From Clostridia bacterium (lineage in GTDB: Bacteria > Bacillota > Clostridia > Oscillospirales > Acutalibacteraceae): a stretch of 58,300 bases of DNA. This document shows positions 21,034 to 33,676 of this stretch, piece after piece. Positions within the stretch are counted from its first letter, which is position 1, and each line of letters begins with the position of its first letter. The DNA lies in the NCBI GenBank assembly GCA_017452785.1, contig JAFTLT010000053.1, positions 1 to 58,300 on the forward strand, in the 5' to 3' direction. The translations under genes were made by a program, and so were the position numbers. The notes beneath the pieces were generated by a model. The model searched no databases, was not told where the DNA came from, and worked only from the letters and a program-made list of their open reading frames with translations.

Positions 21034-22392
21034 TCAGCTTTCAAACAGCTTTTCATAGGCAGTCTCAAACAGATCTGCACCTTTGGTGTCAACCATAATG
21101 TCAACGACGAAAACAGTGCTGCCTTTTACCGCAAAGCCTGCCCAGCGGTCTTGACCTGATTCGTCAGTTTCTCTGTAACAAATGTCCCATGAGGTTTCAC
21201 TGCTGTCGAGGGACTTTATTTCATAGCCGTATTTTTCATATTTTTTCAGCTTTGTGTTTATATATTTCTCTCTTATGTGAGGATAGTCCGAAACGAAAAC
21301 CTCATAAAACAAATATTCATTTTTTTCTTCATATTCCTCAGGCGGTGCATTTTCTGCACCGTCAGCTTCATAGTCTGAGGAATAAAAATAGTGCTGCGCA
21401 AACCGTGTTATGTTGTGTCTCATACATTTGTCGGTGCAGTCTTTTTCATCATAACCTAAATCAGACAGTGAAAAGGGAATATTTATGGTGTTATATATTT
21501 TTGTCGTGTATTCAAAATGCTGACGGCTCACCTTAGCTGACACATATGTTCCTGATAACAGCACTTCCATAATAAGAATGAAAGTCAGAATTTTCACCGA
21601 TTTGCCGTAGGCTGTTTTTGCTTTGAACTGCGACATCAGAGAGAATAAAGCCGATGCAATAAACACAATGATAAACAAATATGCTATGCCGTATTCCTCA
21701 CATTGACCGGCGTCAGCTATGCACACAAAGGCAAGGGACATAAAGCAGTAAATAAGAAAAGCTATAGCTTCTGTCATCCTTCGTGCTTTAACACTTCTGA
21801 GGCTTGTGTATTTTACCTTTTCACCTTTTTTCAAAGCTGATTTTGCTTTAAAAAGCCAGATGAAATAGTCAGTGAGAATAAATATGGGACTGAAGGCAAA
21901 AATGCCTATGATTATCCACCACAGCCAATACTGCATTCTGCTCTCATTAAGACCTATATCCACATCCATAATGAATTGAAGTGCTTTGAAAAATATCAGT
22001 ATAAAGCAGAATATATTTCCCGGCTTTAAAAGAGCTCTTTTCTTTATTGTTTTCATTTTCTGAGCTTCATCGGTCATTATGTCTGTAATGTCGTTTTTCT
22101 GAGTTCTGAAAATATAAAGCTCATCGTGATACACACCACAGCTTTCCCAACCCTCCTGCTCACAGGAAGCAACAAAGTCATCGCCTAAAGAGCCCGAATA
22201 TATTTCGGCACAGTAGCGTATATTTTCCCTCGGCTCGGCTTTTTTGAAGACCATATTCTCATCGTCTATTTCTTCAAGCCTCAGACCTTCTTTTTCTTTT
22301 AAGGTGAGATATTCTTCAATAGCTGTCAGATCTGTATAGTTAAAGTTAAAGATTTCTTTAACTTCGTCTTTGTTCTTTTTTCTGAATATCAT
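21034..22392 (-). CDS. DUF2812 membrane protein (PadR partner)
   Basis: 452 residues. The N-terminal third is the soluble DUF2812 module (LEEIDDENMVFKKAEPRENIRYCAEIY ... CEQEGWESCGVYHDELYIFR). Four hydrophobic segments follow (about 122-140, 155-180, 212-232, 237-258), then another near 270-285 and a soluble C-terminal part. DUF2812 proteins are usually encoded with a PadR regulator, as here: the ATG overlaps the padR stop by four bases. It is thought to act at the membrane in an unknown stress response. Confidence 0.8.
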   Translation of the reverse strand: MIFRKKNKDEVKEIFNFNYTDLTAIEEYLTLKEKEGLRLEEIDDENMVFKKAEPRENIRYCAEIYSGSLGDDFVASCEQEGWESCGVYHDELYIFRTQKNDITDIMTDEAQKMKTIKKRALLKPGNIFCFILIFFKALQFIMDVDIGLNESRMQYWLWWIIIGIFAFSPIFILTDYFIWLFKAKSALKKGEKVKYTSLRSVKARRMTEAIAFLIYCFMSLAFVCIADAGQCEEYGIAYLFIIVFIASALFSLMSQFKAKTAYGKSVKILTFILIMEVLLSGTYVSAKVSRQHFEYTTKIYNTINIPFSLSDLGYDEKDCTDKCMRHNITRFAQHYFYSSDYEADGAENAPPEEYEEKNEYLFYEVFVSDYPHIREKYINTKLKKYEKYGYEIKSLDSSETSWDICYRETDESGQDRWAGFAVKGSTVFVVDIMVDTKGADLFETAYEKLFES

Positions 22393-22715
22393 ATTAGCAC
22401 CTCCATTATTTTTTCTCCGTCAAGAATAAGAGTGCCAAGACGTGCGTATTCCTCTTTAAGGGCTCTTTTTCCGTCTGCGGTTATTATGTAGCTTTTGGTT
22501 GCAAGTCCCTGATTTGTTCTTTTGATAAGACCGGCAGTTAAAAATTTGTCAAGCATTGTGTAAAGGGTTCCCGGACCTATTTTAATTCTGTCAGAGGATA
22601 TGCGTCTTACCTCATTCATAATCTCTGTGCCGTAAAGCTCTTTTGTCAAAGCCAGCAAAACATAATACATAGGCTCAGAGAGAGTCTGCATAGATTTTCT
22701 GGGCAAAAAAATCAC
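22389..22715 (-). CDS. PadR family transcriptional regulator
   Basis: 108 residues, the winged-helix PadR domain: SEPMYYVLLALTKELYGTEIMNEV, GPGTLYTMLDKFLTAGLIK and SYIITADGKRALKEEY. It is short (type 2 PadR without a long C-terminal helix). It probably represses its own operon, since two identical-pattern palindromes flank its promoter. The ligand is unknown. It is cotranscribed with the DUF2812 gene. Confidence 0.9.
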   Translation of the reverse strand: MIFLPRKSMQTLSEPMYYVLLALTKELYGTEIMNEVRRISSDRIKIGPGTLYTMLDKFLTAGLIKRTNQGLATKSYIITADGKRALKEEYARLGTLILDGEKIMEVLI

Positions 22716-25999: not shown

Positions 26000-26767
26000 A
26001 TGGAAAAGAAAATTGACCGTGAAAATACAGATTTAATTATCGGCAGAAATGCTGTTTCAGAGGCACTCAGAAGCGAAAGAGCAATTGACACTCTGCTCGT
26101 TGTCAGAGGCGAAAGAAACGGCTCAATAGGCAGAATAATTGCCGAATGTAAAGACAAAGGCATTGTGGTTAAAGAGGTTGACAAAAAGAAGCTTGACTTC
26201 ATGTGCGGTCAGGGCAACCATCAGGGTGTTGCAGCCTATGCCGCAGTGCATGAATATGCAGAGGTTGAGGATATTTTTGCCCTTGCAAAAGAGAGAGGCG
26301 AGGAGCCCTTTATCATAGTGTGCGACGAGCTTGAAGACCCTCATAACTTAGGCGCCATTATCCGTACTGCAGAGTGCACAGGCGCTCACGGAGTTATTAT
26401 CCCGAAAAGAAGAAATGCATCACTTACATGGGCAGTGGGCAAGGCTTCTGCAGGTGCAGTTGAATATGTGCCCGTGGCAAGAGTAGGTAATCTTGCCTCA
26501 ACTCTTGAAGATCTTAAAAAGAGAGGCCTTTGGGTTTACTGTGCAGATATGGACGGCTCAAATTGGTGCGAGACTGATTTCTCAGGTGGTGTTGCACTTA
26601 TTGTTGGCTCAGAGGGCTCAGGCGTAAGCCGTCTGATAAAAGAAAAGAGTGATTTCGTGCTTTCTCTTCCTATGAGAGGCAAGATAACCTCGCTCAATGC
26701 CAGTGTGGCCGCAAGCATACTTATGTATGAGGTGGCAAGACAACGTCTTGGTATAAAGGCAAAATGA
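26000..26767 (+). CDS. rlmB: 23S rRNA 2'-O-methyltransferase (RlmB/TrmH family)
   Basis: 255 residues. The N-terminal substrate-binding domain (about 8-90, IIGRNAVSEALRS) is followed by the SpoU trefoil-knot domain with DELEDPHNLGAIIRTAECTGAHGV, IVGSEGSGVSRLIKE and LPMRGKITSLNASVAASI, the three SAM-binding motifs. It methylates a ribose in 23S rRNA (G2251 in E. coli numbering). YacO-type proteins of Firmicutes share this form. The ATG follows CGGAGG. The downstream gene is 15 bases away. Confidence 0.92.
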   Translation: MEKKIDRENTDLIIGRNAVSEALRSERAIDTLLVVRGERNGSIGRIIAECKDKGIVVKEVDKKKLDFMCGQGNHQGVAAYAAVHEYAEVEDIFALAKERGEEPFIIVCDELEDPHNLGAIIRTAECTGAHGVIIPKRRNASLTWAVGKASAGAVEYVPVARVGNLASTLEDLKKRGLWVYCADMDGSNWCETDFSGGVALIVGSEGSGVSRLIKEKSDFVLSLPMRGKITSLNASVAASILMYEVARQRLGIKAK

Positions 26768-26782
26768 AAGGATTAATATAAA

Positions 26783-29065
26783 ATGTCTGAAGAAATAAAA
26801 GAGCTTGAGGAAATAGTAGAGGACACCGGTTCTGAAAATACCTCTGATGCCTTTTCGGGTGTTTTTTCTTCGGCGGCAAGCGATGCGGTTTTAGGCGGCA
26901 GTGAATATATAGGTTCCTTTGACGAATTACTTAAAAGTCTGGGAATTGAGCCCATAACGGGAAAACAGGCTGAAGATATTCCCCTAAGCGATGAAGCGGA
27001 AAAGAGACTGTTTGTAAGTGCCCCTGACAGTGAAGATAAGCAGGAATATGTGCCTTATAATGAGGATACCTATCTTGAAAATGCCAAAAAGCAGTCGAAA
27101 AACAGTCAGAGTAAAAAGTTTATGCAAAACTTCAGGGTGCTTTCAAAAAAGACAGGTGACCGCACCTTGCTTGAGGCAGCTCCCACAGGTAAGGCAAAAG
27201 GTAATGTTGCTGACAGTGTAAAGCCTGAAGAAGGCGAGGATATATTTGAGGCTGTTGAAAGAGCTGAGTCAAAAAAGAAAAAAGGCGTTTTTAATGCCAA
27301 GGGCAAAAGCGCAGGTCATATGATTGACAAGGCAAACAAAAAGAAAAAGGAGGAAGTGCTGATGAAAGCAAAGGAACTTGCAGCAGTGCTTGCAAAACAA
27401 ACATCAAAACAAAAAATTCAGCTTATACTTTTGGGAGTAATTGCCCTTGTGAGTGCAGTATTTTGCTTCTTGCCCTCACTTTACACTCCCGAAGGCCCTC
27501 TTGAAATTCTCTTTGGGGACGGCGGCAGAGTTTTTGTCATAGTGAATATAGTGCTTCTTTTGCTCGGTGCAGCGGCAGGGTACGACAGACTCTTTGAGGC
27601 GTTTAAAACAATTAAAGGCGGAAAGCTCAGCAGCAGCACAGGTCTTTTTATAATGTTTGTGTTGGTGCTTGTTCACAATATTGTGCTCTTATTCCTCAAA
27701 AAGGCTCAGGGTGCAGATATAAAAGTTTACACTGTCTATTTTGTTTTTTCGCTCATTGCAGCGGTGATAAGTGAAAATCTTAAAGCAAAAACAGCTCTGA
27801 GAAACCTGAGTGTTGTGGTTAAAAGCGGTGTGCTTGAGAGTGTGCACACAGTTGAAAATAAACTTGACAGCTCAGTGCTGTCAAAGGGTCTTAATAAAAA
27901 AGGTGCAGATAAGGTGCTTTACTGTGCTCAGGCGGACTCAATAAAAGGTCTTAACGGTAATCTCGGCAAGAGAACAGGGGAGGATAAGTTTTATAACTTC
28001 CTTCACCTGACAGTGCTTGCTGCAAGTCTTATTGCAGGCATTGTGGTTGTTGTCAGAAGCAAGGATGCAGCAATGTTTGTCACGGCAATAGTTGCCTGCA
28101 TATGCCTTTGCGGTCCTATAATGTGTGAGCTTGCAAGAACGGTGCTGCTCTATATTGAGAATAAAAAGCTCAACAGTAATTTTGCAGCGGTAACATCCTA
28201 TGAGGGACTGAAAACTATGGAAAAGGCATCGGCTGTTGCTATGGATGCATCTGATGTTTTTACTGCAAAGGTTACTAAATTCCGTGCCGTAAAAGGCAGC
28301 AGACTTTCCACCCATGACTGTGCAGTGCTTGCAGCGGCAACCTTAAAAGACAGCGGCAGCCTTATGTGGTCAGGCTTTGCCGGTTTTGAAAATGATATTG
28401 AAGGTGAGCTTCCTGAGGCAGAGGATCTGCAGTATGAAAGCAAAAGGGGCTTTTCGTGTGTTTGTGCAGGCAGAAATGTTATGGTGGGTAACCGTAGGAT
28501 GCTGCTTAAAAATGAAATAGAAGCTCCGAGTAAGGAAGAAGAAAAACAGTACGCAAGAAATAAATGCGCTATGTATGTTGTGGTTGACGGCATACTTTCA
28601 GCAACCTTCCTTGTTTCATATAATGTTATACCCTCTCTTCAAAGGGCAGTGGTAGGCTTTAATAAAACAGGTCTTGTGCTTCTTCTTACAGCGAAGGATC
28701 CCGGTCTTAATGAAAACCTTATTTCTCTTAAGCTGGGCTGCGATATTTCCTGCGTCAAGGTGCTTTCTGAGGATGCTTCAGAGCTTATGGATGAATACAG
28801 ACTCAACAGATCAATGCGTCAGGCAAACTCACTAGTCTGCTCCAAGCGTAAAAAAGGTCTTTTTGAGCTGGTTGTCAAGGCAAGAAACCTTGCAGAAGGG
28901 GATAAGTTTGTGCTTTATATGCACGTGGCAGGTCAGGTGCTTGCATTTATGATGCTGCTGCTTTCGGTAATAGTGAATGTACCTGCATTTATGAGCCCCT
29001 TTGTTATAATGGCACTTCAGCTTATATGGGGAGCTATATCAGTGTTTATCACAACAAGAAAATAA
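26783..29065 (+). CDS. Degenerate P1B-type ATPase-like membrane protein
   Basis: 760 residues. An acidic then Lys-rich cytoplasmic N-terminus (1-210) precedes transmembrane segments near 216-236, 247-268, 284-304, 314-334, 402-424, 430-452, 705-727 and 733-756. Between the sixth and seventh lies a P-type ATPase-like soluble part. The CPx position reads CICLCGP (439-445), and 43 residues on comes AMDASDVFT (D488), the place of DKTGTLT. AGRNVMVGNRRML matches the nucleotide-domain VGN motif and LLLTAKD (636-639) sits where MLTGDN should be. The GDGxND hinge, TGE and HP motifs are absent. The Asp is kept but Lys and Gly of the signature are lost, so pumping is unlikely. Role unknown. Confidence 0.65.
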   Translation: MSEEIKELEEIVEDTGSENTSDAFSGVFSSAASDAVLGGSEYIGSFDELLKSLGIEPITGKQAEDIPLSDEAEKRLFVSAPDSEDKQEYVPYNEDTYLENAKKQSKNSQSKKFMQNFRVLSKKTGDRTLLEAAPTGKAKGNVADSVKPEEGEDIFEAVERAESKKKKGVFNAKGKSAGHMIDKANKKKKEEVLMKAKELAAVLAKQTSKQKIQLILLGVIALVSAVFCFLPSLYTPEGPLEILFGDGGRVFVIVNIVLLLLGAAAGYDRLFEAFKTIKGGKLSSSTGLFIMFVLVLVHNIVLLFLKKAQGADIKVYTVYFVFSLIAAVISENLKAKTALRNLSVVVKSGVLESVHTVENKLDSSVLSKGLNKKGADKVLYCAQADSIKGLNGNLGKRTGEDKFYNFLHLTVLAASLIAGIVVVVRSKDAAMFVTAIVACICLCGPIMCELARTVLLYIENKKLNSNFAAVTSYEGLKTMEKASAVAMDASDVFTAKVTKFRAVKGSRLSTHDCAVLAAATLKDSGSLMWSGFAGFENDIEGELPEAEDLQYESKRGFSCVCAGRNVMVGNRRMLLKNEIEAPSKEEEKQYARNKCAMYVVVDGILSATFLVSYNVIPSLQRAVVGFNKTGLVLLLTAKDPGLNENLISLKLGCDISCVKVLSEDASELMDEYRLNRSMRQANSLVCSKRKKGLFELVVKARNLAEGDKFVLYMHVAGQVLAFMMLLLSVIVNVPAFMSPFVIMALQLIWGAISVFITTRK

Positions 29066-29092
29066 AACATCAGACAAAGAAAGGTGAAAACT

Positions 29093-29783
29093 ATGTCAGC
29101 TATCATTAAAGCTCAGAGACTCAAAAAGTCCTATGGCAAAAAGGTTGTTCTTGACGATGTAAATTTCGAGATTGAAGAAGGATCAATTGTGGGTCTCTTA
29201 GGTCCTAACGGCTGCGGCAAGACAACGCTTATTAAAATTCTTACCGGTCTTATCAAAGACCACACAGGCATGATCAAAATTGCAAATGAGGAGCCCGGCC
29301 CTTACACAAAGAGTATTGTGGCTTTCCTTCCCGATAAATCCTATTTGCCCGACTGGATGAGGCCGACAGATGCTATTAAGTACTTTGCCGATTTTTACAG
29401 CGATTTCGATAAGGATAAGGCAGAACGAATGGTGAGAGATTTCGGACTTGACCCCTCACAGAGGCTTAAGACTATGTCAAAGGGTCAGCAGGAAAAATTA
29501 AACCTTATTCTTGTTATGTGCCGTCAGGCAAAGCTCTATATTCTCGATGAGCCTTTAGGCGGACTTGACCCTGCAGCGAGAAGTGCAATTCTTGACCTTA
29601 TTATGAGTAACTATGCTCAGAATGCAACAGTGCTTCTTTCCACACACCTTATAAACGATGTTGAGAGAATATTTGATCGTGTGCTTATGATAAGCGGCGG
29701 CAAGGTTATTGTTAACTCTCATGTCAATGAAATAAGAGAAAAGGGTCAGACAGTTGAGGATGTATTCAAGGAGGTATTCTCTT

Positions 29784-29794
<11 letters not shown>
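29093..29794 (+). CDS. ABC transporter ATP-binding protein
   Basis: 233 residues from the ATG at 29093; a GTG three codons earlier leaves no room for the AAAGG site. Walker A is GPNGCGKTTL, the signature is MSKGQQEKLNL (a diverged LSGGQ with a Lys), Walker B is LYILDEPLGGLDP, and the switch His is in LLSTHL. It is the GldA/YtrB-type exporter ATPase and pairs with the membrane protein encoded next, whose gene overlaps its end by 11 bases. Confidence 0.9.

Positions 29795-33676
<3,882 letters not shown>

Follow-up and report, generated by a model that had tools for sequence, protein, structure and literature searches.

The window, as we call the whole stretch of 58,300 nucleotides of Clostridia DNA analyzed here, encodes a protein of 760 residues that, by its sequence, is a full-length descendant of a CopA-like P1B ATPase, and this protein is close to certainly a dead pump. 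We propose, at a rough probability of 0.55, that it works as a stand-alone pseudo-P1B-ATPase, acting as a membrane receptor or scaffold and not as a pump. It also appears reasonably probable that this stand-alone receptor or scaffold arose from a copper pump by one early event in a single order of Clostridia, its gene becoming near-core and its ATP-binding domain being remade as a binding module.

Layout of the pseudo-P1B-ATPase gene

The gene and its immediate neighbors occupy the following positions in the window.

26000..26767, + strand: rlmB-type (SpoU family) rRNA methylase gene, identified by Pfam, 15 bases upstream
26783..29065, + strand: pseudo-P1B-ATPase gene, 760 aa; open reading frame with homology to CopA-type pumps
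26783..27388, + strand: charged N-terminal tail, residues 1-202, defined by composition, at the usual place of the metal-binding domain
26915..26956, + strand: tail motif SFDELLKSLGIEPI, residues 45-58, the window's form of the family motif, found by pattern match
27395..27787, + strand: helices MA, MB, M1 and M2, residues 205-335, from hydropathy and alignment with true pumps
27788..27991, + strand: remnant of the actuator (A) domain without the TGES loop, residues 336-403, from alignment and a deletion
28097..28117, + strand: CICLCGP in M4 at the CPC place, residues 439-445, from motif position
28244..28258, + strand: DASDV at the DKTGT phosphorylation place, residues 488-492, from alignment
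28298..28558, + strand: N-domain, residues 506-592, region of highest family conservation, with borders that we set
28559..28822, + strand: second part of the P-domain, residues 593-680, with the GDGxND stretch deleted, from alignment
28898..29053, + strand: helices M5 and M6, residues 706-757, from alignment
29084..29794, + strand: ABC transporter ATP-binding subunit, identified by Pfam; adjoins in the window's genus only
29754..30605, + strand: probable ABC permease, no Pfam match, label taken from the original prediction; adjoins in the window's genus only

The tail of the window protein contains 32 K/R and 40 D/E in its 202 residues, in agreement with the claim that a long charged N-terminus replaces the metal-binding domain, and its composition suggests that it is disordered. 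Elsewhere in the window, at 21034-22715 on the minus strand, a gene for a large membrane protein lies behind a small gene that, by its look, we take to encode a PadR-type regulator.

Descent from CopA-type P1B ATPases

Searched alone, the window protein gave nothing significant in Pfam (best E 0.14) or NCBIfam (best E 0.022), so that its link to the pumps becomes visible only by phmmer and by profiles. phmmer against PDB sequences returned a single match at E<=10, to CopA (3rfu), with an E-value of 3.6e-5 over residues 434-673. A profile of 90 homologues matched the same CopA at 2.9e-41, and the family profile aligned with a profile of 19 CopA-like pumps from relatives in the same order over 555 columns (E 1.1e-37), including all eight helices. 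In this profile-profile alignment the pseudo family lacks, through deletion, both the part of the A-domain core that carries TGES and the stretch around GDGxND, and the first Gly of GxG is lost. The NCBIfam CopA model matches 69 of the 90 members at E<=0.01. By its fold, the P-domain of P-type pumps belongs with the HAD-like hydrolases (PF00702), a model matched by 8/90 members at the same threshold; the nucleophile Asp of that fold is kept in only 70/124 family members.

The original prediction had noted that the spacing from the CPx place to the Asp is that of heavy-metal pumps, and we indeed count 43 residues between Pro445 and Asp488, as in 19/19 CopA-like pumps. In a tree, a single branch (support 100/100, length 2.62) separates 34 pseudo rows from 19 true ones; as the tree samples 34 of 124 members and carries long branches and long-branch warnings, we used it solely for the split between pseudo and true sequences. 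P1B descent was thus borne out by the end-to-end profile alignment together with this branch, and the eight helices were found with A, P and N parts, the A part being shortened (median 67 aa across the family).

Loss of catalytic and metal-site motifs

We then counted the signature motifs in 124 members, one per genome and some of them partial frames, taking the last 600 residues as the core. The catalytic motifs are lost in all members examined, as their sequences show. DKTG is found in 0/124 cores and occurs by chance in the tails of two members; at the DKTGT place, Asp stands first in only 70/124 and Lys second in 0/124. The invariant Asp claimed to be kept is therefore kept in the window protein and is not invariant in the family. 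TGES is missing from the window protein, where its stretch is deleted, and the lone TGE[SP] match in the 124 cores falls at the TGDN place. The GDGxND stretch is likewise deleted, with a lone GDG..[ND] match among the 124 cores at another place. No member has a SEHP-like string (0/124), and the His of that place is present in 5/124; in true pumps the Glu and His of SEHP bind ATP. The HP motif is missing in the window protein as well, so that the predicted loss of GDGxND, HP and TGE was correct throughout, TGES and GDGxND being lost through deletions.

The metal site has fared no better. The CPC string is found in 0/124 members, and looser forms anywhere in the core are rare ([CST]P[CH] in 6/124, CP[CSH] in 5/124). 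The M5 YN and M6 MxLSS places, which are metal-ligand sites in true pumps, have drifted. What persists is the M4 Pro of the CICLCGP place (105/124), the M6 Trp (W749; 103/122) and the Asp at the TGD place (106/123). Cys residues precede the M4 Pro in the window protein and some relatives, with CPP in L054 and L066. In the window protein itself, CICLCGP (439-445), DASDV (488-492), VGN (568-570) and TAKD at the TGDN place (636-639) were all confirmed as predicted.

All of DKTGT, TGES, CPC and GDGxND are present in 19/19 control CopA-like pumps, and SEHP in 17/19. These controls derive from 23 loci offered as true pumps, of which 21 gave frames matching the family profile (the failing loci, L002 and L003, are other ATPases of the window's genome); two of the 21 proved to be family members and were moved, leaving 19. 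Judged by these motifs, the pseudo-P1B-ATPase should no longer form a phospho-aspartate, be dephosphorylated or hold a transported metal. We looked for family homologues with an intact DKTGT, which would have refuted the prediction, and found none. Sequence thus lends strong support to a P1B-type ATPase without catalytic power: DKTG is missing, homology runs end to end, one branch parts pseudo from true rows, and orthologues with rlmB upstream exist as predicted. The family joins what defines a pseudoenzyme: homology to an enzyme, catalytic residues gone and a gene kept by selection.

Distribution of the family

We searched 119 genomes at the protein level, that of the window among them. At E<=0.001, 108 had a match, which in some was to true pumps alone. 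The family profile was built from the matching frames of 90 loci (L004-L093), one per genome, at places resembling full relatives, and was used to search again 29 genomes (28 of the 119 plus G400) with no match, a weak match or an unfetched one. Long family matches were obtained in all except G026, G038, G066, G076, G096, G098, G104 and G400. G026 carries a C-terminal fragment of the family gene and G083 a gene in two pieces; counting both, the gene is present in 113/119 genomes. Of those that lack it, G076, G096 and G104 are 55-77% complete, while G038, G066 and G098 are 90-94% complete. The gene is also missing from G400, which lies outside the 119 and is 99% complete. The pseudo-ATPase is thus not indispensable, given its absence from G038, G066, G098 and G400.

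Across the class, a sample of 393 genomes gave 21 matching ones at E<=1e-45, a cut-off at which remote relatives elsewhere may score too weakly to register, and 21/21 belong to the window's order. No match fell outside that order among the genomes listed, the 352 non-matching ones not being listed singly. The CopA-like pump of the window's genome scored 71.9 bits, against 613.6 for the pseudo-ATPase. A further 28 loci came from named genomes, some probably the same as genomes already in our set. These MAGs bear the labels Oscillospiraceae, Ruminococcaceae, Clostridiaceae or Clostridia, many derive from ruminants, and DKTG[TSA] was found in none of their frames. We found no dedicated Pfam or NCBIfam model for the family.

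Four loci (L118, L119, L120, L121) encode an extra acidic C-terminal tail of ~370-430 residues with Asp/Glu runs. In L053 (G094:C38) an in-frame TGA splits the gene, with an rlmB-type gene before the first half.

Selection and the shift of conservation

The sequences show that the gene is under purifying selection. Between the window and its nearest relative (L005), dN/dS is 0.10 over the whole gene, 0.11 in the tail and 0.10 in the core; among eight whole-gene pairs it lies at 0.08-0.18 in seven and reaches 0.24 in one (L004/L006).

Mean column identity in the family is highest in the N-domain (0.283), followed by the P-domain (0.230-0.244), the membrane parts (0.167-0.191) and the A remnant (0.163). 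The 19 true pumps rank otherwise: their N-domain scores least (0.385), and the top values belong to M3-M4, P1 and M5-M6 (0.66-0.69). Since 124 diverse rows are set against 19 close ones, within borders that we placed, the rank order of regions alone is comparable; on these alignments, the peak of conservation, which in true pumps lies in the membrane parts and P-domain, has moved to the N-domain. Residue G569, of VGN, is found in 124/124 members and residue G556 in 123/124; a Trp follows four residues past residue G556 in 73/107, the window protein not being among them. Those of the 32 best-conserved columns that fall in membrane parts hold neither charged residues nor Cys. With strong selection falling most heavily on the former ATP-binding domain, the protein probably has a new, non-pumping job.

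Gene neighborhood

An rlmB-type gene with SpoU_methylase and SpoU_sub_bind domains (Pfam) lies on the same strand, no more than about 170 bases upstream, in 82/90 genomes. The eight exceptions comprise three contig edges (L011, L042, L062), the split gene of L053 and four loci with other content (L061, L065, L077, L080). Within loci L034-L093, three of which are from the window's genus, the rlmB-type gene is upstream in 53/60, spanning 19/21 families. Among 40 later rows, some of them repeat genomes, it is upstream in 30; nine of the ten without an rlmB match have no more than 81 upstream bases, and the tenth (L252) has 868 bases with no match. Going by the spacing, the pseudo-ATPase is probably made from a transcript common with the rlmB-type gene.

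Downstream, an ABC ATPase gene directly follows in 33/33 loci of the window's genus and in 0/57 loci of other genera, and the other downstream genes are variable. The expectation that orthologues share a neighborhood thus stood for rlmB and failed for the ABC pair, which we rejected as a general partner beyond the genus.

The charged tail and its short motif

Across the family, Glu (14.2%), Lys (9.6%) and Asp (7.4%) abound in the tails, and Cys and Trp are scarce, at 0.2% each. The pattern [STADN][LIVMF][DE][DE][IL][ILDN] matches 58/103 tails, against a mean of 1.6 in 20 shuffling rounds, and is missing from 45/103.

We also searched for the motif in other proteins. An initial, stricter pattern yielded 6 matches across 10 genomes, of which 5 were in pseudo-ATPases. 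A looser one gave 21 matches in 12 genomes: 11 are pseudo-ATPases by their place, one is the N-terminus of an ABC-2 permease, and in the other 9 the motif is internal or near the C-terminus. One of these 9, near the end of a protein that we presume to be DUF3794-type, was set aside as likely chance. Over 147 genomes of the order, 19 matches were found and assigned by our own reading to 11 pseudo-ATPase tails (L198 judged by its tail alone, its locus being cut), 4 N-termini of VanW-domain proteins and 4 places elsewhere.

In one genus, four VanW/PG_binding_4/G5 proteins (L207-L210, from genomes G556, G508, G534 and G568) start with ISVDDIL.EY, like pseudo-ATPase tails. An ABC-2 type permease (L206:2927-4249, minus strand, genome G459) has a long charged N-terminal tail opening with KFSIDDILAE, and four LytR-CpsA-Psr proteins (L216, L217, L228 and L229, from G102 and G498) have N-termini that look loosely similar by eye (DINDIIAEAM, SLNDLIASAI). 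VanW proteins elsewhere (11 VanW matches in 8/18 genomes, of which 7 N-termini were read by eye) did not display the motif, and it was found in 0/26 LytR-CpsA-Psr frames, at least three of them on the wrong strand. Strict forms thus open a few other envelope proteins. As the motif is not generally present in such proteins, its value as a sign of an envelope hub is only that of a lead.

Discussion

The role that we propose would divide the protein into three working parts. The eight helices would serve as a membrane anchor, the P/N module beneath the membrane would be a binding domain for a protein or a nucleotide-like ligand in an altered pocket, and the tail, long, charged and bearing the short motif, may recruit a cytosolic partner. 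Several observations sit uneasily with a receptor or scaffold: the gene can be missing from nearly complete genomes, the sole conserved neighbor, an rRNA methylase, hints at no specific scaffold role, and nearly half of the tails lack the motif by the pattern used.

The protein could instead be a nucleotide sensor, its N-domain binding ATP, ADP or a signalling nucleotide unhydrolysed and reporting its level. The best-conserved domain, its two near-invariant glycines and the Trp that often follows residue G556 speak for such a sensor; the ATP-binding SEHP string is gone from every member, its His nearly so, the first Gly of GxG is lost and the window protein lacks the Trp, and we regard this reading as possible but unlikely. 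The steady presence of rlmB upstream, on the same strand and across families, would suit a membrane tether for RlmB or maturing ribosomes whose charged tail binds the methylase or rRNA. We consider such a tether doubtful, since rlmB is not there in L061, L065, L077, L080 and L252 and an upstream housekeeping gene may merely share its promoter. All eight helices are kept, with their M4 Pro and M6 Trp, and together with the A-domain remnant this makes a transport-like role without ATP conceivable. Even so, we see a slim chance that the P-type membrane fold works as a passive ion or lipid channel or carrier: conservation in the membrane parts ranks among the lowest of all regions, and their top columns hold neither a charged residue nor Cys.

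The suggestion that the protein is a metal sensor or a partner of the ABC pair encoded next finds some footing in the constant adjacency of that pair within the genus and in the Cys before the M4 Pro. Neither half of it held up: CPC is missing in 124/124 members with the M5/M6 ligand places drifted, and the pair does not adjoin the gene in any of 57 loci outside the genus, making this role very improbable. Finally, lost catalytic motifs and the in-frame TGA of L053 might also come from a pump gene in decay or from faulty assembly; a gene held by 113/119 genomes at the dN/dS values given above leaves that explanation a negligible likelihood.

Compared with CopA-type P1B ATPases (3rfu; PRK10671, TIGR01525, TIGR01511), the pseudo family has the same eight-helix layout and A/P/N order and shares the M4 Pro-Asp spacing, VGN and the Asp at the TGD place. 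It differs by the loss of DKTGT, TGES, GDGxND, SEHP and CPC, by its shortened A-domain, by a charged tail instead of the N-terminal metal-binding part and by the move of conservation to the N-domain. P-type ATPases rank with the most intensively studied enzymes; to our knowledge, dead relatives with the whole architecture kept are hardly documented, and we know of no other free-standing bacterial pseudo-P-type-ATPase family. Our literature search, covering few subscription papers, found no report of a bacterial family like this one. Plasmodium guanylate cyclase beta has a degenerate P4-ATPase-like domain, most of whose signature residues could not be identified in the study that describes it (PMC6592433). 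The two are alike in keeping a P-type-like domain in a protein that is not a pump; the Plasmodium protein is eukaryotic, of the P4 type and fused to a cyclase output, whereas the family described here is a stand-alone bacterial P1B descendant.

Altogether, a pseudo-P1B-ATPase appears to be a near-core gene in one order of gut bacteria, with a role that we infer from its sequence. Kept by almost the whole order, the family lends itself naturally to testing what else the P-type fold is capable of when it no longer pumps.
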